Position numbers and translations under genes: made by a program
Virus record (IMG/VR): IMGVR_UViG_3300009553_000801
Location: 1 to 38,290 of that record
DNA: 38,290 nt
Source: a virus
Reading direction: 5' to 3' (one strand)
Shown here: one piece after another, positions 7,835 to 38,290 of the stretch
How the letters are laid out: every line of letters starts with the position of its first letter
How positions within the stretch are numbered: the stretch's first letter is position 1
Notes under the pieces: model-generated
Database searches by the model: none
What the model was told of the DNA's origin: nothing
Seen by the model: only the letters and a program-made list of their open reading frames with translations

Positions 7835-8202
7835 CACGCCACCTCCTCGGCCGGCGGGCCGCCCCAGACGACGGTCGCCTTGCCGTCGCTGGTTGAGAAC
7901 GAAATCACCTCGGCGACATAGGCATTCCGCACCACGAACGTCCGCCCGATATCGAGCTTGTTCGTCAGCGTCGCATTGTCGATCGCGCGCAGCGCCGTCA
8001 GCGAAAGCCCGCCCTTGAAAAGCAGCTTCGTCGTCGTTTTAGAAGCTTCTGTGCTCTCACGGAACGCACCCGCTTGATTATCGCCCTTCACGACCTCGCG
8101 CATCGCGCCGCCGATATCCATCTCGGTTTCGCCGTCAGTATCGAGCAGCTGCCCGTCGATCGTCACCTTGCACTGGCCCACGACCCTGTTCGGATTAGCC
8201 AT
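7834..8202 (-). CDS. M: tail tube protein (Mu gpM/gp40)
   Basis: A 122-residue homologue of the Mu tail tube protein. The N-terminus MANPNRVVGQCKVTIDGQLL and the segment GGAMREVVKGDNQAGAF are family hallmarks. The start ATG at 8202 is preceded on the minus strand by GAAGGGAGTGAGGC, giving a strong ribosome-binding site, as expected for an abundant structural protein. It stacks as hexameric rings inside the sheath. Its stop overlaps the start of the chaperone gene. Confidence 0.92.
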   Translation of the reverse strand: MANPNRVVGQCKVTIDGQLLDTDGETEMDIGGAMREVVKGDNQAGAFRESTEASKTTTKLLFKGGLSLTALRAIDNATLTNKLDIGRTFVVRNAYVAEVISFSTSDGKATVVWGGPPAEEVA

Positions 8203-8232
8203 GCCTCACTCCCTTCTAACAGGCCCCTCAGA

Positions 8233-8260
8233 GCCGATTTAACTGCCGTCTAAATCCGGC
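8233..8260 (-). terminator. inverted repeat between sheath and tube genes (attenuator or processing hairpin)
   Basis: An inverted repeat GCCGATTTA / TAAATCCGGC with a 9-nt loop and a one-base bulge lies in the 80-nt gap between the sheath stop (8283) and tube start (8202). No T-run follows on the minus strand, so it is not a classical intrinsic terminator. It may attenuate or act as an RNA-processing or stability element that separates sheath and tube expression. Confidence 0.4.
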
Positions 8261-8282
8261 CCCCGATCGCCGATCGCCGACA

Positions 8283-9749
8283 TCAGAGCCTGAATTCGAT
8301 CCGCGCCGCGAACACGAGGAAGCCGTTGGCGATGTCCGGTGCGGTCAGCACGTTGACCTGGCTGCGGTTCGTCCCGTCGCGCTCGACGATCAGCCGTGAG
8401 GTGAAGCCCGCCAGATCCTCGACCAGCCCGGCCAGCGCCCATTCATAGGCCAGCGCGATCAGCTCGGCGCGGATGATGCCCGGCGTCACGATCGCCTGGC
8501 CCGCGCCATACGGCGTGTCGTCATCGACCAGCTTGTGCCGCGGATATTTCTGCGCGATCCGCGCCCGCATCGAATAGCGCAAGTAACTGAGCGTCGCCGG
8601 CGTCGTGATGTCGAGCCAGGCGAGATCGTCATAGCCATAGGGATCGGTCTGATACATCGTGATCAGCCGCTCGATCCGCACCACGCCGCCCTGATCGACC
8701 GTGAAGGTCGAGATGCCGTCGCGCAAAGCCAGCTCTCGCTCCGTCCTGGTGAAGCGGCTCGGCTCCAGCGGCGGCAACAGCCCGCGCAGCTCCAGCGTCG
8801 TCAACGGCCGCGCAGGATCGATGCTCGCCTGCAGCGCAGCGACACCGCCGATCGCCGCTGCCCAGCGCCACGGCGGCGTCGGTGACAAATTCGCGCCGAT
8901 CATGCAGCAGAACTGCGAATTGCGCGCCGCGCCGAACGAGGTGACCGTGCCGAGCGAACCGCGAATGCCGGCGAACGCCATCCCGTCGATCTGCCGCAGC
9001 GGCCCCGCCCGGCTGCTCAACTCGGTATCGACCGCGCCGATGATCGTCGCGTCGGCCGTGCCGAGGATCATCGTCGAGAATTGCTCGTCGCCGATCGCCG
9101 CCCACACCGTTGAATAGTCGGGATTGCCGGCACCGCTCGCCATCACCACGATCGTCGCCGTGATACCGGCTGGCATCCGCTCGCCCTGGTAATAATTGGT
9201 GCGGACGCTGATGTCGTTGCCCATCGTCCCCTTGTGACGGCTGGTCAAAGTCACGACGGCCCCGGCCACCGAAGCGGTCACGTGCAGATCGAGATTGGCA
9301 TTGATCGCCGCACCCACCGCCGTCGCCACCGTCGCCGCCGCCGCCGCATTCGCCACCGCAACCGGCACCTTTGCGTCACCGATCATCAGCGGCAGCGTTC
9401 CGGCCGCCGTCGCTGTGCCGGCGATCGTGATCGTGCCCGTCGCCGCGGTGCCGCCGCCGAGATCGTCGAGCGCGCACGCCCAGGTCTCGGTCACCGCATT
9501 GACGACAGCCAGCTGCGCGATCATCGCCGCCAGCTGGCTGCCGCGACCGAACGCCTGGATCGCCTGCGAATTCGACGTGATCCGCACCGGCGTCAGCGCC
9601 GCGGTCAGCCCGGCCGCCAGCTTCTGGCCGATCACGAGGATCTTCGTCGGCGCAGCCGGCAGCCCGGAGATCGCCTTCGACGAATCATATTCGACATATT
9701 GCCCAGGGACCCGGATGTCGGACGGGATGCCGTTGAACGAGATCGTCAC
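8283..9749 (-). CDS. L: tail sheath protein (Mu gpL/gp39)
   Basis: A 488-residue contractile sheath subunit of the Mu gpL family. The N-terminus (ISFNGIPSDIRVPGQYVEYD) is diagnostic, and AAPTKILVIGQ follows. The C-terminal third (ITMYQTDPYGYDDLAWLDITTPATLSYLRY) is the conserved sheath core that contacts the tube. Length agrees with Mu gpL (about 495). The GTG start at 9749 overlaps the gp38 stop (GTGA). It polymerises around the tube and contracts on injection. Confidence 0.93.
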   Translation of the reverse strand: MTISFNGIPSDIRVPGQYVEYDSSKAISGLPAAPTKILVIGQKLAAGLTAALTPVRITSNSQAIQAFGRGSQLAAMIAQLAVVNAVTETWACALDDLGGGTAATGTITIAGTATAAGTLPLMIGDAKVPVAVANAAAAATVATAVGAAINANLDLHVTASVAGAVVTLTSRHKGTMGNDISVRTNYYQGERMPAGITATIVVMASGAGNPDYSTVWAAIGDEQFSTMILGTADATIIGAVDTELSSRAGPLRQIDGMAFAGIRGSLGTVTSFGAARNSQFCCMIGANLSPTPPWRWAAAIGGVAALQASIDPARPLTTLELRGLLPPLEPSRFTRTERELALRDGISTFTVDQGGVVRIERLITMYQTDPYGYDDLAWLDITTPATLSYLRYSMRARIAQKYPRHKLVDDDTPYGAGQAIVTPGIIRAELIALAYEWALAGLVEDLAGFTSRLIVERDGTNRSQVNVLTAPDIANGFLVFAARIEFRL

Positions 9750-18651: not shown

Positions 18652-20310
18652 CTACCAGGCGCCCGGCACGCGCCGCCCATGATCGCGCCGCCGCCCATGC
18701 CGCCGATCGAAATCATCTTCATCATTCGAACCGTCGCGCGTCTTCGGCACGGACCGATAATCGAAGAGCTGCGCCTCGGTGAACGAGGCCGCATTCGCCA
18801 GCGCCAGCGCCGGCGCGAAGTCGCCATGCCGCGCCAGGCCATCGGTGCCCTCGTTCTTCACCCCCTGCGGCACGCGCGGGATGCCCCGGATCATTCGAAT
18901 TTGCTGAAGGTCCGAAACCAGATTGTCGTTGGCCGGATAGAGGAGTTTCCGGCCTTCCAGGCCATCCTTCATCCTCGGCATCCATTTGGCATACCAGGCC
19001 TCGGTCAGCTTGACCGCCTCGATCAGGCTCGGCCCGAACCGCTGCACCGCCACCTCGCCCAGATAACCGCCATTGCCGGTCGCATCGATCTTGCCGCCCA
19101 CGAACCGCGGCAGCCTTTCGGTGACCCAGATCAGCAGCTGCTTCTGCTGCTCATAGGGGACGTTCCGCATCTCGATGACGAACGGCGCACGCCGCGTCAG
19201 GTCCGCCTCGATCGCGAGCGGCACATAGACCGAGGCGTCGCCGTCGCGGGCGAAGTCCTGGCCAAATGCATGCTGCAGCTTGTCATCCAGCGCGGCCAGC
19301 TCGGGCGCGATATTCGCTTCGAGCCACTCCTGGACGAACGCCTCGCGAACCGCCTGGTCGAGCAGCTCGAAGCCCGCCGGACAGCGCAGGGTGAACAGCT
19401 TGTCGGGCGGCACCGTGCACGCTTCGAGCAGCAGCCGGCTCAGATAGACGCCGCTGCCCTGGCCCGGAATGCAGTCCAACTCCTCGGCCGCATTGGCACG
19501 ATAGAGCTTGCGGATGTTCGAGCGCCATTGCGCCTCGCCCTCGGGCGTCCATTCGATCCCGCGCTTGAGACAGACGCGTTGATAGAGCCCGTTCTCGATC
19601 GCGTCGTCGAAGGTGCAGCGAACGACGTTGGCATCCTCGCCATAATCGCCCTTGCGGATATCTTCGAGCAACAGGTTGAACGCATTGTCCGCCCCGTTGT
19701 GCGTCGAGATGACCAGCACCTTGCCGCCCCAGATGATGAAGGCCATCGCCGCCTTCAGCAATTCCTCGGCATCGTCGTGGAACGCGAATTCATCCAGGAT
19801 CACATAGCCCTGCCGCCCCCGCAGCGATCGCGGCCGGCTCGACAGCGCCACGATCTCGAAGCCGGATGCGAAGCGAATGCGGAACGCCTGGATGAACTGG
19901 TCGGGATTTTTGTTGTCGCCTTCGACGTGGAACAGGAAATCGCCCACCTCGCTGCACGCCGGCATGAAGGCCCGCGCCCACATCCCGCACGCGTCGATGA
20001 ACTCGCGCGCCATGTCGAGATTATAGCCGATGTACAGCACGTCCATCCCGCCGGCCGCCATCTGCGCGCCCGCCGTCAGGACCGCGTCGGCGCCGACGCC
20101 CCAGGTCGCACCGATCCGCCGGCTCTTGTCGGTCGCCGTCAGCGAATAGCGCGACGTCGAGGCGAGGATGTCCTTCTGATGCTTCAGCAAGATGTCCGGC
20201 AGCGACTGGCCTTCCAGCGCCGGCGGCAGGCTCTGCATCGCGGCACGCCGGTGCGCGATCCATTCCTCGTCAGTGACGGGGCCGGCATCCGGCTGCGCGA
20301 GCGGTGGCAT
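18652..20310 (-). CDS. E: terminase large subunit (Mu gp28)
   Basis: A 552-residue packaging ATPase/nuclease. The ATPase site is ATDKSRRIGAT at 59-69, an atypical Walker A as in Mu gp28, with Walker B YVILDE at 169-174 and the coupling STHNGADNAF near 202-211. The nuclease half starts with GQDFARDGDAS at 350-360, a first acidic residue D352, and contains KIDATGNGG and HGDFAPALALA as later acidic motifs. ATG at 20310 overlaps the gp27 stop. The last 25 residues are Asp/Arg-rich. Family assignment is firm. Confidence 0.93.
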   Translation of the reverse strand: MPPLAQPDAGPVTDEEWIAHRRAAMQSLPPALEGQSLPDILLKHQKDILASTSRYSLTATDKSRRIGATWGVGADAVLTAGAQMAAGGMDVLYIGYNLDMAREFIDACGMWARAFMPACSEVGDFLFHVEGDNKNPDQFIQAFRIRFASGFEIVALSSRPRSLRGRQGYVILDEFAFHDDAEELLKAAMAFIIWGGKVLVISTHNGADNAFNLLLEDIRKGDYGEDANVVRCTFDDAIENGLYQRVCLKRGIEWTPEGEAQWRSNIRKLYRANAAEELDCIPGQGSGVYLSRLLLEACTVPPDKLFTLRCPAGFELLDQAVREAFVQEWLEANIAPELAALDDKLQHAFGQDFARDGDASVYVPLAIEADLTRRAPFVIEMRNVPYEQQKQLLIWVTERLPRFVGGKIDATGNGGYLGEVAVQRFGPSLIEAVKLTEAWYAKWMPRMKDGLEGRKLLYPANDNLVSDLQQIRMIRGIPRVPQGVKNEGTDGLARHGDFAPALALANAASFTEAQLFDYRSVPKTRDGSNDEDDFDRRHGRRRDHGRRVPGAW

Positions 20311-28788: not shown

Positions 28789-30765
28789 CTATTTGACCGA
28801 GCGAAGCCGGGTCAGGCCCACCGCCATCCGGTCGATCACCGCCGTCTCGACGGCCTCTCGCTCGGCTCTTTGCGCCCGCTGCTGCACCGGCCGCAGCGCC
28901 GCCGCCGTCTGCCCGCGGTGCCGCACCGGCCGCACCACGCTCGCCTCGGGCGCGTCATCCTCGACATAGGCCGGCAACAGCGCCGCGATCTGGTCGGCTT
29001 CGAGCAGCTGCTCCGCCACCTCGACCGCTTTGACCGCCTTGCGCAGCCGTGCTTCCTGTTTTGCCCGCGTCTTCGCCGCCTCGACGTCGAGAAACCCGGT
29101 CGCTTCGAGCACCGGCGCCGAGCACAGATACTCGCCCTCGCGGCTGTAGACGTGGATCGGCGCATGCAGATCGTCGGGATCGAACCGCACCGTCACGCGC
29201 TCGCCGGCGATCAGCGACAGATGCTCCGACCAATAGCGATTGCCATGCAGCGTGATCGAACCGTTGTTGCGATCGGTCGGGCGATCGTCGGCGGTCAACT
29301 TCGACAGCCGCAGCTGCTCGGGCGTCGCCTTGCCGATCGGCGCGCGCGCATAGGATTCCTCGAAAACCTCATCGAGCGACCGCACGCCGCCGCCCATTTC
29401 GGTCCGCCGGCCTGTGCGCGCATTATGCACCGCCAGGCTCGCCTCCATCACGTCCAGGAATTTCGCCAGCGGCACCGCCGTCGCGCCGTAATTCTCGGGC
29501 TTCGCGTCCGGCTTGTTGCCCGTATAGGCGCCCGCGAACGCCGGATGCTTGGCGATGCTGTCGCAGAAATCGCGCCAGCACCGCTCGATCGGCTTCGACG
29601 ATCCGCGATAGGGCAGCGCCCAATGGATCTTCACGCCCATCGACGTCAGCACGCCCAAAGGCTCTTCGTCCCTGATTTTGAACCGGAACCGCGACGTCGC
29701 GCCGCCGGTGATCCATTTCGAGGCGAACGCCCGACCATTGTCCATCAAACAGCCGGCCGGAATGCCATAGCGCTCGAACAGCCGCGCAAACGCGAGCCGC
29801 GTCTCGACCGCGCTCTCCGTCCGGCCGGTCGACTGCGCCAGGAATTTGCGAGAATAGACGTCCTGGATCCCGATCGAGATCGGCCGCGCGATCGTCCCGT
29901 CCGGCCAGCGCACGAAAACATCCCATTTGTGCCCGTCGATATTGACCAGCTCCATCGCGTGGAGATCGGCCACCGTCCGCTGCTGTGGCGGCAAGGTCCG
30001 GCGCAAAGCTTCCTTGCCCTTACGCATGGCGATCACGAGCCGCGGATCGACCTCGCGTTCGAATTTCCGCAGCAACGTCCGGCTGCAGGGCAGCACTTCG
30101 CCGCGCGCCGCCGCCGTCAGCTCCAGGCGCTCGTAACAGCTTGCCCAGGTCGGCTCCTCGGGCCGCATATAATCGGACTTGATCATCTGCCACGCCCAGT
30201 CGGCGACATCCGATTCGGCGCCGCCGCCGCCGCGCCGAGGAGCGAGGAACGGCAGTCGATTCGCCGGGGCGATCCCGTCGACCGCGCGACGCCAGTTCCA
30301 GATCGTCGCCGGCGAAACCTTGGCGCCCTCGGCGGCGAGCGCCACCGCCGCCGTCGCCGAAAGTCCGCCATCTTCGAGCGCCTCGACCTTCGCGATCACC
30401 GCCGCCCGCCGCGCCGCCTCGGCCTTGACCTTGTCCGATTGCGCCTCAAACCAGCCCCACCGCCCATTGTCCGCGAGCGCGTCGGCCGGCCGCAGCTGCG
30501 TCGCGACATCGGCCCCGCCGACCAGCCCGCGCTTGATCAGCTCCGCCCGCGCCGACGCCGGCAGCAAGGTGATGTGATATTCGAGCCCCCCACCGCGACC
30601 GCGCCGCGGCCGAGCCAGCGGCGACCCATCGGCGCCATGCTTCAACGCCCAGCATTCGTCAGACGCGCGCTCGTTCACCTTGCGCTTGACCTTCGACAGC
30701 CCCGGCAGCCCGAGGTCCGCCAGCTCCTGCGCCGTAAACCAGTCCTTTCCGCTCCCCGCGAACAT
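28789..30765 (-). CDS. A: DDE transposase (MuA-like)
   Basis: A 658-residue MuA homologue (Mu: 663). N-terminal winged-helix (WFTAQELADLGLPGLSKVKR), end-binding domain around 115-175, and DDE core with D277 (NIDGHKWDVF), D342 (LMDNGRAF) and E394 (KPIERCWRDF), matching Mu D269, D336, E392. A C-terminal basic helix binds B and ClpX. It cuts and joins phage ends during integration and replicative transposition. ATG 30765 overlaps the preceding stop (ATGA). Confidence 0.95.
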   Translation of the reverse strand: MFAGSGKDWFTAQELADLGLPGLSKVKRKVNERASDECWALKHGADGSPLARPRRGRGGGLEYHITLLPASARAELIKRGLVGGADVATQLRPADALADNGRWGWFEAQSDKVKAEAARRAAVIAKVEALEDGGLSATAAVALAAEGAKVSPATIWNWRRAVDGIAPANRLPFLAPRRGGGGAESDVADWAWQMIKSDYMRPEEPTWASCYERLELTAAARGEVLPCSRTLLRKFEREVDPRLVIAMRKGKEALRRTLPPQQRTVADLHAMELVNIDGHKWDVFVRWPDGTIARPISIGIQDVYSRKFLAQSTGRTESAVETRLAFARLFERYGIPAGCLMDNGRAFASKWITGGATSRFRFKIRDEEPLGVLTSMGVKIHWALPYRGSSKPIERCWRDFCDSIAKHPAFAGAYTGNKPDAKPENYGATAVPLAKFLDVMEASLAVHNARTGRRTEMGGGVRSLDEVFEESYARAPIGKATPEQLRLSKLTADDRPTDRNNGSITLHGNRYWSEHLSLIAGERVTVRFDPDDLHAPIHVYSREGEYLCSAPVLEATGFLDVEAAKTRAKQEARLRKAVKAVEVAEQLLEADQIAALLPAYVEDDAPEASVVRPVRHRGQTAAALRPVQQRAQRAEREAVETAVIDRMAVGLTRLRSVK

Positions 30766-31037
30766 CAGCGCCGGCCTCCCCGCAGGTCGGTGATCCGCAG
30801 CGCCGGCGCCGGCAGCGCGAGCTGCTCGGTCGCCTTCGTCCGGACACTCGATTTTGTCGGCACCGGCTTCCGCGCCTGCTGCGCCTCGTGCAGCTGGCTG
30901 ATGATCCAGGACAGTGCGTCCGCATCGGTCACGTCCAGCTCGATCTTGACCGTCGTCGCCTTGCCGCGGTTCGACGCGCTGAAGCTCTTCACGCGCGCCT
31001 GGCCGTGCTGCCAGCTGATATGGCAATAATCACTCAC
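30765..31037 (-). CDS. small hypothetical early protein
   Basis: A 90-residue protein with a GTG start at 31037, overlapping the preceding stop (GTGA) and ending in the transposase start (ATGA). It begins SDYCHISWQHGQARVKSFSA and includes a helix (DADALSWIISQLHEAQQARK). No known family. Conserved-looking and well coupled, next to A. Confidence 0.7.
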   Translation of the reverse strand: MSDYCHISWQHGQARVKSFSASNRGKATTVKIELDVTDADALSWIISQLHEAQQARKPVPTKSSVRTKATEQLALPAPALRITDLRGGRR

Positions 31038-34892: not shown

Positions 34893-35168
34893 CTAGCGAG
34901 CCCCCGCATTTAGACGGTGCGCGGGTGCATGTGTGTTGTTACCATCCGCAACTGCGGATTCGTAAACACCAGGGAAGAGAGTTTCGACGGTATGGCCCAG
35001 CTCAGCAGCGACGATCTCCGCGGTGGGGCGGGCCGTCTTGCCCATCAGCACATCGGTGACCGATCGCTTGGCCAGTCCGCGCGTGCGTTCGAACGCCGCG
35101 AGCGATCCGAACCTCTTTCGGATCGCCGCCTTGATGTCTTCGGGGTGGATCGCAAACGTCGTTGTCAT
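34893..35168 (-). CDS. ner: Ner-like early regulator
   Basis: A 91-residue protein. Residues 8-65 (HPEDIKAAIRKRFGSLAAFE, then TRGLAKRSVTDVLMGKTARP and VETLFPGVYES) match the Ner/Nlp HTH family, which represses the repressor and early promoters after infection. The ATG at 35168 is chosen because upstream codons in the long frame lie in the operator region. The C-terminal 20 residues (about 72-91) extend beyond Mu Ner, and their DNA contains an operator copy (34944-34959). Confidence 0.88.
   Translation of the reverse strand: MTTTFAIHPEDIKAAIRKRFGSLAAFERTRGLAKRSVTDVLMGKTARPTAEIVAAELGHTVETLFPGVYESAVADGNNTHAPAHRLNAGAR
34944..34959. promoter_or_regulatory. distal operator inside ner
   Basis: The palindrome ATCCGCAACTGCGGAT (7+2+7) matches the operator consensus TCCGCA-NN-TGCGGA of the ner-repressor intergenic region. 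Its centre is about 265 bp from the main operator, a distance compatible with DNA looping. It lies in the 3' end of the ner coding sequence. Confidence 0.65.
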
Positions 35169-35185
35169 GCCGCAGGCCTGTAATT

Positions 35186-35926
35186 GTGTCCGCATCTGCA
35201 TCGGATAAGTCCGCAAGTGCGGACAGTCAAGTCCGCAATGGCGGAATAGCCTTCTCGGATCGCCTTCAGCATGCGGCGGCGCAAAAAGGCTGGAATCAAA
35301 CGCGGTTAGCGGAGGCGAGCGGCATCCCTCGCGCGCGCATCAACGATTACTGGAAGGGACCGAAAGAGCCGGCGTCGAACTATCTGTTCCCGATCGCCGA
35401 GGCTTTGTCCGTTTCTGCGGAATGGCTCGCTCTGGGCGGTCCATTCCCGACGACGCCGGCACCGGAGCCGCCACCCATCGTCCATACCAATTTGTCGGAT
35501 GTCGCCGACCAGCTCGGCTTGATCAAGGTGGAGGAAATCGACCTGGCGCTGGGCATGGGTCTTACATTTCTCGACGAAGGGGCTGTGCAGGCCGTCGATC
35601 GCTGGATCCCCGTGGACTGGGTCAGGGCGCTGACGGACGCGCCGGCGAATTTCCTGACCATCGCCAAGCCGGTCGGCGACTCGATGTATCCGACGATCAA
35701 CGACCGCGACATCGTCCTGATCGACCGCTCGCTCCGCCATATCGACCGCCAGGACGGCATCTGGGCGCTGGCCTATGGCGGTCTCGGCACGATCAAGCGC
35801 GTCCGCGCCATGCCGGACGGCTCGTTCAAACTCATGGGCGACAACCCGCATGTCCGCGAGGAAACGGCTCACGATGGCGAGATGTTCGTGATAGGCCGCG
35901 TGGCCGGCGTCATCCGGCGCACCTGA
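35186..35926 (+). CDS. prophage repressor, HTH plus S24 (LexA-type) peptidase
   Basis: A repressor of about 246 residues, divergent from ner. HTH_3 domain (FSDRLQHAAAQKGWNQTRLA, then SGIPRARINDYWKG) is followed by a Pro-rich linker and an S24 peptidase domain. The catalytic Ser is in GDSMYP and the Lys in GTIKRV, so RecA-assisted self-cleavage is expected in DNA damage. Mu's own repressor lacks this domain. The start is unsettled: GTG 35186 is the best standard codon but places two operators inside the coding region. A TTG at 35162 and an ATA at 35246 are other options. No ATG lies in frame near the HTH. Confidence 0.85.
   Translation: MSASASDKSASADSQVRNGGIAFSDRLQHAAAQKGWNQTRLAEASGIPRARINDYWKGPKEPASNYLFPIAEALSVSAEWLALGGPFPTTPAPEPPPIVHTNLSDVADQLGLIKVEEIDLALGMGLTFLDEGAVQAVDRWIPVDWVRALTDAPANFLTIAKPVGDSMYPTINDRDIVLIDRSLRHIDRQDGIWALAYGGLGTIKRVRAMPDGSFKLMGDNPHVREETAHDGEMFVIGRVAGVIRRT
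35188..35246. promoter_or_regulatory. repressor operator array over the early promoter
   Basis: Three sites with the same left half GTCCGCA lie at 35188, 35209 and 35231, spaced 21 and 22 bp (two helical turns). The middle one is perfect (GTCCGCAAGTGCGGAC, 35209-35224); the outer two have degenerate right halves. On the minus strand the middle site fills the 17-nt spacer between -35 TTGACT (35230-35225) and -10-like TATCCG (35207-35202), so binding blocks the early transcript that starts near 35195 and reads ner. Confidence 0.75.
35202..35230 (-). promoter_or_regulatory. early promoter for ner and transposition genes
   Basis: -35 TTGACT, 17-nt spacer, -10 TATCCG (3 of 6 to consensus). The start point would be near 35195, giving a leader of about 27 nt before the ner ATG at 35168. 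The perfect operator lies inside the spacer. Confidence 0.6.
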
Positions 35927-35940
35927 TGAGGATCCTGCAC

Positions 35941-36312
35941 ATGAAGCTCGGGATATTCGCTGCCACCGTCGCCTTCGCCTTGGCCGCCTGCAGCGACGGA
36001 CCGATTGACCAGGTCGCTGCCGCACCCGTCGCCACCGCGCCGCGTTACGCCGATAACGGCGCCGCCGCCCTGACCGCCCTGCGCGCCGAGAAGGCGATCA
36101 AGGATGTCGCCGTCGATCCAGCGGCGCCGGTCGAATGGACGATCGCCGTCGATGACGATGGCACCCGCCGCTATGGCTATGCCGAATATGTCTGCCTCGT
36201 TCTGAACGAGACGAAGGCGACGGACGCAACGACCGATGTCCGCATCGTCGACAGCACGAATGCCAGGTCCCTCGGCACGGTCCACTGCTCCGATTCGGCA
36301 CGGCTGGACTGA
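35941..36312 (+). CDS. small lipoprotein downstream of the repressor
   Basis: A 123-residue protein. Signal peptide MKLGIFAATVAFALAAC with lipobox LAAC gives a lipid-modified Cys at residue 17; Ser-Asp-Gly follow. The mature part is acidic with two later Cys (EYVCLVL and VHCSD) that could pair. ATG 35941 has GAGG 9 nt upstream; ATG 35926 overlaps the repressor stop (TGATG) and is an alternative. It appears co-transcribed with the repressor, so it is probably made in the lysogen. It may alter the cell surface or exclude other phages (inference). Confidence 0.8.
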   Translation: MKLGIFAATVAFALAACSDGPIDQVAAAPVATAPRYADNGAAALTALRAEKAIKDVAVDPAAPVEWTIAVDDDGTRRYGYAEYVCLVLNETKATDATTDVRIVDSTNARSLGTVHCSDSARLD

Positions 36313-36316
36313 ACCC

Positions 36317-36332
36317 GCAAGACTCCTCTTGC
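36317..36332 (+). terminator. short hairpin after the lipoprotein gene
   Basis: A perfect GCAAGA-CTCC-TCTTGC stem-loop lies 5 nt after the lipoprotein stop. It is followed by an A/T-rich stretch without a T-run, so it is a weak terminator candidate that would separate the lysogeny transcript from the SOS-controlled gene. Confidence 0.45.
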
Positions 36333-36338
36333 CAAATC

Positions 36339-36353
36339 GTTCCTTATTTGTTC
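36339..36353 (+). promoter_or_regulatory. LexA (SOS) box GTTC-N7-GTTC
   Basis: GTTC CTTATTT GTTC matches the alphaproteobacterial LexA operator exactly. It ends 2 nt before the ATG at 36356, so LexA would block transcription or a very short leader of the gene behind it. An AT-rich centre within a GC-rich genome fits a promoter region. A second match was not seen in the window. Confidence 0.72.
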
Positions 36354-36355
36354 CA

Positions 36356-36862
36356 ATGCATGGCATGGAACATCGAGTCGCCTTCGCCCTTCCTCCCGCC
36401 CGCGGCGTGCTGGCTGCCCTGATCAAGCGGCACGGTGAGGATTGTTCGTCGCTGTCGCGCCTGATCGGCCGCAGGCCCGACTATCTCGGCCGCTACATCC
36501 GCACCGGATCGCCCCGCCGCCTCCGCGACGAAGAACGAGAGACGCTGGCCCGCTATTTCCGGGTCGACGAAGCCGCGCTCGACGATCGCCCGAAAGGAGA
36601 AGCCCCCATGGCGCACCCGTCCCCCAACGCCGCCCGCTATCGCCCACCCGCCAAGCCCAGCTTCGCCGATTGGCTGCTCGCCCAGAAAGGCCGCGACGAC
36701 GCCATCGGCCGCCTCGCCAAAGGCGCCGCCCAGGATCGCGCCTGGCCGCGCGGCGGCGACCTCGCAGCCGTCTGGCAAAGACTCAACCAGCTCGGCGCCG
36801 GCGCCGACGCCGAGGTCTGCGACGCCATGTCGGACGCCGAGATGGATTTCCTGTCCTACTGA
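36356..36862 (+). CDS. HTH protein fused to YozE/SAM-like domain, SOS-controlled
   Basis: A 168-residue protein. Residues 1-80 are an HTH module (GVLAALIKRHGEDCSSLSRL, then GRRPDYLGRYIRTGSPRRL) like the DNA-binding part of sphingomonad S24 regulators. Residues 98-150 (SFADWLLAQKGRDDAIGRLA, then QDRAWPRGGD) match the YozE SAM-like fold. A strong ribosome-binding site AAAGGAGA lies before an in-frame ATG at 36608, so the C-terminal half (84 residues) may also be made alone. The start at ATG 36356 is chosen from the LexA box position; ATG 36365 is close too. Confidence 0.78.
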   Translation: MHGMEHRVAFALPPARGVLAALIKRHGEDCSSLSRLIGRRPDYLGRYIRTGSPRRLRDEERETLARYFRVDEAALDDRPKGEAPMAHPSPNAARYRPPAKPSFADWLLAQKGRDDAIGRLAKGAAQDRAWPRGGDLAAVWQRLNQLGAGADAEVCDAMSDAEMDFLSY

Positions 36863-36863
36863 C

Positions 36864-37058
36864 ATGGCCTTCTCAGGCTTCTGCCGCGGCGGCCCGTTCG
36901 ATGGCCAGCATTTGACCGGCCACGATCAGACCGCCCGGATCGGCGAGCAGCCGGAGCACGAATACATCTTCGTCCGCACCGGCGCCGATGGACATTGGCG
37001 GTACGTCCCACCCCGCAAAGGGGTCCCACTTCCCCGCCGCCGCCGAGGTCGGGCATGA
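36864..37058 (+). CDS. small phage protein with GGPFDG motif
   Basis: A 64-residue protein starting 1 nt after the stop of the SOS-controlled gene, so in the same operon. The pattern FCRGGPFDGQ and later HEYIFVRTGADGHWRYVPP are shared by many small phage hypothetical proteins. The basic Pro/Arg-rich C-terminus overlaps a repeat element (37022-37031). Function unknown. Confidence 0.65.
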   Translation: MAFSGFCRGGPFDGQHLTGHDQTARIGEQPEHEYIFVRTGADGHWRYVPPRKGVPLPRRRRGRA

Positions 37059-37148
37059 TACCCACTCTCCCCCGCAGACCCGCAGAAATCCGCCACTTTC
37101 CGGAACTGGGACCCCACCGCCCGAACTGGGACCACCCGAGTCCCACTT
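37022..37148. repeat. cluster of four GGTCCCASTT elements, possible transposase-binding sites
   Basis: GGTCCCACTT (37022-37031) and AGTCCCACTT (37139-37148) run in one direction. AACTGGGACC (37104-37113) and AACTGGGACC (37124-37133) are the inverse orientation, spaced exactly 20 bp. A further palindrome CCACTTTCCGGAACTGG overlaps at 37093-37109. A short repeat array beside the repressor genes is where a Mu-type left end with L1-L3 sites should be. The other end is outside the window. Confidence 0.5.
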
Positions 37149-37498
37149 CCCGCAGGCGCCCGCGGCCATCGCCGCCCGATCATCAGCCCCTCAAACGGCG
37201 GTAATCCGCCACTAAGCGCCCTCTAAGAGGGTCACGCCCCAATCGCCCCGATTCTAATTCAACCTGTCCGAGCACTGTCTAAATCGCCCCCGACTCTAGA
37301 CAACGCCCCGATCCGCCGATTTTTGGAGAGCACCCCCGAGACCCGCGCAAAACCGCCATTCCGTCCCACACTGTCCCGCCCAATGCCGCCCTATCCCGCC
37401 CTCACGCCGACTCTAAAGTCACGTGTCCCCTCACAGTCGGCGCGGCGCGGCGGCGGGATTGGACGCGACGGACGCCAGATATCCATTGCCGCATCGCT
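37059..37498. other. non-coding C-rich region, possible prophage left end
   Basis: No convincing gene. Besides the GGTCCCASTT cluster it holds CCGAYTCTAR three times (37248, 37290, 37407), two copies of AATCCGCCACT (about 37088 and 37203) and a CCCTC-TAA-GAGGG hairpin (37219-37231). The C-rich plus strand and loss of gene order mark the change from prophage to flanking DNA. I cannot place the exact terminal CA because the other end and target duplication are not in the window. Confidence 0.45.
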
Positions 37499-37644
37499 TT
37501 GCCGAAGTCCGGTTCCTGCGCCTCGGCACGACGCTCTAAGCCGACGATCATGCGTTTGGCATATTCCCGATCATTGCCGGACCGGCGTCGCGCGCCGCGC
37601 GGCGCGTTGCTGCTGGCGCCGATGGTGCATGGCCCGGTGGTCAT
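37402..37644 (-). CDS. possible flanking small gene, uncertain
   Basis: An 80-codon frame on the minus strand with a plausible helical section (NDREYAKRMIVGLERRAEAQ, then EPDFGKAMRQW). Codon use does not clearly favour it over the opposite strand, which is also open. If real it would be a flanking host gene or a fragment of one. No family recognised. Confidence 0.22.
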   Translation of the reverse strand: MTTGPCTIGASSNAPRGARRRSGNDREYAKRMIVGLERRAEAQEPDFGKAMRQWISGVRRVQSRRRAAPTVRGHVTLESA

Positions 37645-37847
37645 CGGGCTATTAACGTTGGCGACGACGCTGACGCGTAAGCTGGGACCCGAGCTGAAAT
37701 CGTTCCGGCTGGTGCCGATCCCCCAGCGCAGGTCCCGGCGAAGCGAACTCCGCAAATCCGCGTCGAGCGCGAGAAGAAGGCGGCGGGCGGTGACGCCCCG
37801 CGACTACCTGGAGTCGCAGACTCCGCCTCCCGCGCCCGCATCGCCGC

Positions 37848-37917
<70 letters not shown>

Positions 37918-37977
37918 AATCGTGAGTAAGGACGTGTTTGCGGCGGCGGACATCGGCAAGCTGCCCGCGCCGCCACG

Positions 37978-38133
37978 GTGCCACCGCGGGCAAAAGACAG
38001 CGTCGCCGCCTATGGACCCGGCGAGCGGCCGGGAGGCGAGCGGCTCTATTATGCCGAATGGCATGTCGGGCCGACACGCGCGGAGCTGGCCCAATATCTG
38101 CAGGCCGCCCGCGCGAAACCGGGCTGGGGATGA
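37978..38133 (+). CDS. possible small gene or gene remnant
   Basis: A 51-codon frame with GTG start 37978 and stop TGA 38131-38133. The C-terminal part (ERLYYAEWHVGPTRAELAQY) has a natural composition. The ATG of a further 20-codon frame overlaps its stop (ATGA). No ribosome-binding site is clear and an N-terminal partner lies in another frame, so it may be the tail of a broken gene. Confidence 0.22.
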   Translation: MPPRAKDSVAAYGPGERPGGERLYYAEWHVGPTRAELAQYLQAARAKPGWG

Positions 38134-38290
38134 TCGCGTGCCGGACGGTGGAGAGTTATCACGTCAACGGGTGCGTCCAGCTCGGCGAATAGCCGCCGGG
38201 TTCGGCCTGTCGCGGGAGCTGCGTCAGGTGTCGTGGCAATTTAGGGGGCGGCCACCGCAGATCGGGGGCAAACTGCTGATTGGGGCGTGA

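Follow-up and report, generated by a model that had tools for sequence, protein, structure and literature searches.

What does a gene that joins an HTH to a YozE-like domain, and that starts directly behind a LexA box close to a prophage repressor, do for the phage that carries it? We addressed this question in a window of 38,290 nucleotides, the whole of IMG/VR virus record IMGVR_UViG_3300009553_000801 (positions 1 to 38,290). Our analysis indicated that the locus, which lies at the left end of a Mu-like phage of sphingomonads, is most likely a LexA-gated cassette with two domains and probably two products.

The Mu-like nature of the record was evident from Pfam matches to the MuA DDE transposase (PF02914), MuB (PF09077) and the Mu portal (PF06074). 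The MuA gene, with Pfam and PHROG matches, lies at 28789-31026 on the minus strand. The host group is sphingomonad bacteria, and MuA relatives were found in 12 of 397 Sphingomonadaceae genomes. Toward the left end, the order is a Ner-like early regulator known from family matches (34893-35216, minus strand, divergent from the repressor), the S24-type phage repressor (35162-35926, plus strand), a small lipoprotein-like gene (phrog_7191; 35941-36312, plus strand) also present in the phages L002 and L135, the LexA box, the fusion gene (36356-36862, plus strand), a 64-aa ORF (36864-37058, plus strand) and the terminus. The preliminary description had placed the repressor next door to the fusion gene; it is indeed close by, but the lipoprotein-like gene lies between the two. 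The 64-aa ORF matched no family and is identical in L002 (IMGVR_UViG_3300005844_000050). L002 stops at exactly 37435 with ..CTCACA, the terminal hexamer at 37430-37435 on the plus strand of the window, so 37436-38290 is probably host DNA. This likely host flank is absent from L002 and contains a (GA)n(GT)n microsatellite at about 37850-37918. From the gene order and the position of the terminus, the fusion is a phage gene at the left end, one gene from the repressor.

The perfect GTTC-N7-GTTC box (GTTCCTTATTTGTTC) was confirmed at 36339-36353 on the plus strand. It abuts the coding frame as described earlier, with the in-frame ATG at 36356 beginning 2 nt later and a further in-frame ATG at 36365 as an alternative start. 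A TTGCCA hexamer 4 nt ahead of the box (36329-36334, plus strand) may serve as the -35 element, and TTGCCA, TTGCCT or TTGCAA was seen in L002, L135 and L040. GTTC-N7-GTTC is a real LexA operator type in sphingomonad hosts by comparison of their genes, being found ahead of lexA in six of six and of recA in five of six genomes tested. The available portions of two papers give GTTCN7GTTC as the Caulobacter SOS box (PMC9578287, PMC12700426). With this operator at its promoter, the fusion gene resembles members of the alphaproteobacterial LexA regulon. However, between 0.96 and 1.08 perfect boxes are expected by chance in the window, where two are present (the second at 19336). A single box is thus at chance level, and only comparison lends weight to it. 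A missing box in relatives had been named beforehand as an argument against SOS control; all eight half-site bases proved invariant in five phages (the window, L002, L135, L040 and L043). Between the window and L002, compared over 36300-36372, the box differs at two positions, both inside the spacer.

The gene behind the box encodes 168 aa in two parts, in line with the preliminary description. The HTH half (36356-36607, plus strand) is kin to HTH-only genes and to the N-termini of sphingomonad S24 regulators, with 48.6% identity in the best plasmid match and 46-54% to 13 S24 N-termini. In the HTH tree it fell in an open part, alongside three HTH-only rows and the rows from S24 regulators; an alignment that combined HTH with YozE rows was misaligned and was left out of the analysis. 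The C-terminal half scored 20.6 bits against PF06855 (YozE_SAM_like), under the curated cut-off of 25 bits, while the stand-alone relative in L135, 51-56% identical to it, exceeds the cut-off at 28.9 bits. The AlphaFold model of the fusion consists of two separate helical domains connected by a loose linker at about residues 79-97. Foldseek matched the YozE part, modelled with a pLDDT of 88, to YozE structures with a probability of 0.99 and an E value of only 0.2, and this weak E value prompted a second structural comparison. The closest solved folds were those of the YozE family, namely S. aureus 2o6k (Z 8.7) and B. subtilis YozE 2fj6 (Z 7.8). A PDB sequence search with the YozE part returned only a weak match (2fj6, E 0.39), and one with the HTH half returned no match. 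The predicted four-helix fold is therefore shared with PF06855/UPF0346, although the window protein differs in its fusion to an HTH, its LexA box and its profile score. It also differs from the S24 peptidase regulators (HTH plus Peptidase_S24), several of which have a box at their start: no S24 domain with the Ser/Lys dyad was found by Pfam in its C-terminus, and its putative recognition helix reads RPDYLGR, where the S24 group mostly has NPAYIQQ. PADLOC gave no match for the fusion, YozE or HTH, and the idea of a defence system was dropped.

Inside the fusion frame, AAAGGAGA and an ATG at 36608 form an internal ribosome site and start (36594-36862, plus strand) that could yield the YozE half alone, a product already suggested in the preliminary description. 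The relatives in the same slot explain how this start may have arisen. In L135, the closest of the genomes with a related MuA (about 61% identical), the same lipoprotein gene is followed by the box and then by YozE alone (56% identical). The same order of box, ribosome site and stand-alone YozE occurs in L040, which has a Ner-like gene and a ParB-like gene (49% identical), and in L043, whose transposase-like ORF and S24 repressor were named by eye. The window and L002 instead have the HTH frame after the box and ahead of the ribosome site of YozE. The sequence comparison shows that, in this lineage, an HTH was inserted between the box and a stand-alone YozE gene. Because the same-slot relatives carry YozE alone behind its own ribosome site, the simplest view of the ATG at 36608 is that it was formerly the start of YozE, and it can probably still be used.

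We also considered that the halves might be made only as separate proteins, with the HTH frame merely running into YozE, or that the fusion is decaying. The ribosome site just ahead of 36608 is strong and none is clear before 36356, and HTH and YozE are separate elsewhere, as this alternative would have it. However, no stop codon lies between the halves in the window or in L002, and the third codon position is G+C-rich relative to the second in both halves, more weakly in the HTH half. We regard separate or decaying halves as unlikely. The fused form itself is not widespread. Among the matches listed for 397 Sphingomonadaceae genomes, none spanned both halves, where a fusion should rank first, and L002 was the only match in a viral-contig scan with the fusion protein, leaving the window and L002 as the only carriers seen. 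The two genes are 99% identical, with two substitutions, one of them silent, and are too alike to reveal selection on the fused frame or on the internal start. Identity between the window and L002 climbs sharply just ahead of the LexA box and stays at about 99% through to the terminus. By this alignment, 36319-37435 is an end module recently exchanged between phages. As the repressors of the two phages share only about 33% identity, the near-identical cassette has passed in one piece between phages that differ in immunity.

To weigh the box by comparison, we turned to the YozE family. Scanning genome contigs with an alignment of YozE sequences gave 68 loci, every one of them titled as a sphingomonad, and 53 of these had a perfect box within 200 bp upstream of YozE. 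Random 200-bp windows from the same loci gave a mean of 0.63 boxes, with a maximum of 4 in 500 draws; another density estimate gave 0.74. The 53 boxes had constant half-sites and 32 distinct spacers, and among the 15 loci lacking a perfect box, one had a one-mismatch candidate and 14 had none. Relative to YozE, every one of the 53 boxes has the GAAC orientation, and at loci with a divergent umuD or HIRAN gene it may therefore control that neighbour as well. A second draw was only partly independent, as it shares genomes with the first set (G001, G003, G004). It ran a profile against 199 Sphingomonadaceae genomes, 15 of which yielded 30 matches; 8 of these 30 had a box within 200 bp and 15 had one within 300 bp (1.2 expected). 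The viral loci were kept as a separate set, several of them being duplicates of one another or of genomic loci. In 29 of 36 the box lay within about 155 bp, and in L044, the fusion itself, at -311; the misses were L038, L039, L041 and L042, as well as L023 and L035, whose sequence starts only at the gene. In the prophage L015, the genes listed ahead of YozE (terminase, portal) run in the direction of YozE. When YozE was sought in 385 genomes of the class, with a limited number of candidates scored per genome, only one matched, the centre genome, and the family looks confined to sphingomonads on these searches. The comparison strongly supports the YozE half as a member of a gene family repeatedly linked to LexA in sphingomonads and their phages.

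The phages themselves showed a second pattern. We defined the slot as the stretch from the repressor stop to the left end, up to 2 kb, and found 8 boxes in 24.3 kb of slot and 0 in 124 kb elsewhere. This count covers 13 of 17 regions; L137, L142, L146 and L148 were left out, with no repressor located by S24 queries. Two boxes occur in L148 (Sinorhizobium phage Aussie), at positions 1811 and 3156 when its 8-kb region is flipped. Judging from the annotated c repressor, they fall outside the slot, and counting L148 would bring the boxes elsewhere to 2 rather than 0. Among the slot boxes, the one in L138 (1857 bp away) and the second in L140 are not near a plausible start, and the starts in L144 and L145 are uncertain. 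In L140, another Mu-like prophage, a 125-aa gene of no known family (8019-8413, flipped coordinates) directly follows the repressor, with a perfect box 2 nt before its ATG. The window and L002 share this 2-nt spacing with L140, whose gene is unrelated to theirs. The enrichment and this shared spacing suggest that the slot is where these phages may place SOS outputs.

These comparisons bear directly on whether the box is functional. About one perfect box per window is expected, and the box could on that count be a chance match in front of a constitutive gene. However, it is kept in the sister phage, in the three same-slot stand-alone relatives and in 53 of 68 genomic relatives, and the slot is enriched. 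We therefore rejected the chance match, which is highly improbable, and regard SOS control of the fusion gene through LexA as strongly supported by the conservation of its operator.

The repressor may respond differently from what had been proposed. The preliminary description expected DNA damage to trigger both the repressor and the fusion gene. The S24 repressor of the window keeps the Ser/Lys dyad, but it carries Leu-Gly in place of the Ala-Gly of cleavable S24 proteins, the bond cleaved in the lambda and P22 repressors according to the accessible part of one study (PMC3121763). Judged from the residues, this replacement makes cleavage of the window repressor through RecA doubtful, and with it the joint triggering. 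In an alignment of 13 phage repressors, ten had Tyr-, Phe- or Leu-Gly, two had Ala-Gly (L134, L147), and L135 had neither site nor dyad; Ala-Gly was present in two host S24 regulators. By eye, the L040 repressor lacks the dyad and the L043 repressor has a canonical Ala-Gly site. The S24-like repressors of L135 (5782-6516) and L040 (2792-3637) thus lack both catalytic residues, and both of these phages have a YozE gene behind a LexA box.

We propose that DNA damage, through cleavage of LexA, would switch on the cassette. Two products could then appear, the full-length HTH-YozE protein and YozE alone, comparable to the nested Tum starts of phage 186. The HTH would dock on DNA, and the YozE/SAM-like helical domain would bind a protein partner. 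The most likely use is that the cassette passes the damage signal to the prophage's own switch, as an anti-repressor or induction modulator, since most repressors in this group of phages are without the usual RecA-cleavage bond. The concentration of LexA boxes in the slot also speaks for it. Several observations point the other way. The fusion is 99% identical beside repressors that are only about 33% alike, and it does not track the repressor as a dedicated anti-repressor might. In Gifsy phages a single anti-repressor is known to act on two repressors, so the unchanged fusion is compatible with a switch role, though it is not the expected result of co-evolution. In addition, L043 pairs a canonical-looking cleavable repressor with a boxed YozE gene, repressors with odd cleavage sites also occur in prophages having no slot box (L136, L139, L141 and L143), and host YozE genes adjoin repair genes rather than phage repressors. 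On balance, we give the switch role somewhat less than an even chance.

The genomic neighbours raise a different possibility. UmuC/UmuD, SRAP or HIRAN genes lie within about 3 kb of YozE in 35 of the 68 genomic loci (16 UmuC, 15 UmuD on the divergent strand, 16 SRAP and 13 HIRAN). The Pfam names were confirmed on examples; the UmuD example scores as Peptidase_S24 and was named from its place beside UmuC. YozE might accordingly be an ordinary SOS effector, a small protein-protein adaptor in translesion synthesis or damaged-DNA handling, carried by the phage as a passenger, with the HTH only adding DNA targeting. The exchange of the cassette between phages with different repressors fits such a damage-tolerance helper. 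However, judging by the locus titles, many umuDC neighbours belong to Sphingomonas species that are close relatives of each other, and the helper explains neither the joining to an HTH nor why the slot of L140 holds an unrelated boxed gene. It is a tentative alternative, possible but short of probable. A third candidate is a regulator of host takeover or superinfection, whose HTH would bind host or phage operators while YozE recruits or blocks a partner, so that host genes are switched during SOS without action on the phage repressor. The fusion query matched 367 of 397 Sphingomonadaceae genomes, mostly through its HTH part among the matches listed, reflecting kinship with the chromosomal S24 regulators. 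This HTH-S24 family (L113-L132) is near-universal in sphingomonads, and about half of the 20 loci examined have a GTTC-N7-GTTC box at the start region (9 by scripted window, 10 counting L132). However, with the putative recognition helices differing as they do, operators shared with the S24 group are not expected, and this role seems unlikely.

The HTH partner is also seen apart from the fusion. In 9 of the 68 genomic loci, a separate HTH gene of the same type as the fusion N-terminus stands at the YozE stop, and among the loci listed the probable HTH start codon adjoins or runs into the stop (as in ATGA or TGATG), implying that YozE and HTH are probably translated together. The separate genes thus occur in the order YozE-HTH, opposite to that of the fusion. 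A broader and rather doubtful reading is that YozE-like proteins form an unrecognised SOS-output family in sphingomonads, as SAM-like adaptors working with a partner HTH protein at damage-switched promoters. The pair would have been taken up by transposable phages, and fused in one lineage, as a portable, repressor-independent link of prophage induction to the host SOS response.

LexA-controlled prophage genes are a known kind. As in the window, the tum gene of coliphage 186 has a LexA site at the promoter (p95) directly before it, and nested in-frame starts giving C-terminal products (Tum, Tum95.2, 95.4, 95.5) are annotated there, comparable to the internal ATG at 36608. The consulted part of PMC7708051 describes 186 induction as running through Tum from LexA-regulated p95, against its repressor. 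Phage 186 is of another type, and action of the window protein on the window repressor is our proposal only. Gifsy GfoA and GfhA are small LexA-controlled prophage anti-repressors paired with repressors that are not cleaved, and one of them can serve heteroimmune phages, as far as the accessible part of PMC3121763 goes; such reach would fit the unchanged fusion beside two repressors. The Gifsy phages are lambdoid, no HTH-YozE architecture was seen for GfoA/GfhA in that same part, and repressor binding by the window protein is hypothetical. Like Tum and Gfo/Gfh, the window gene is a prophage gene behind a LexA-type box, which appears conserved in five phages. It had no Pfam or PHROG match to an anti-repressor family; these families are diverse and were compared by profile only.

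In the literature searched, we found no paper tying YozE to SOS and no function assigned to the YozE/SAM-like family. As far as that search shows, the sphingomonad YozE family as a putative SOS-linked group, its pairing with an HTH and the fused form are new. Its presence behind LexA boxes, beside umuDC, SRAP and HIRAN, and paired or fused with one HTH type, provides a concrete handle on the role of the family. It also bears on whether transposable phages with apparently non-cleavable S24 repressors sense DNA damage via YozE.

Several minor observations concern the loci around these genes. In L065 (1291-3186, minus strand), a UmuC-like ORF (IMS, DUF4113) runs on in one frame into an Ion_trans_2 ion-channel domain. 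Two HIRAN proteins match PADLOC PDC-M03B models. Near the phage terminus, RAASTGGGAC occurs in four copies on both strands at 37023-37149 and nowhere else in the window (0.05 expected). These copies are candidate end-binding repeats for the transposase, and GAACTGGG motifs near the left end of L135 resemble them.
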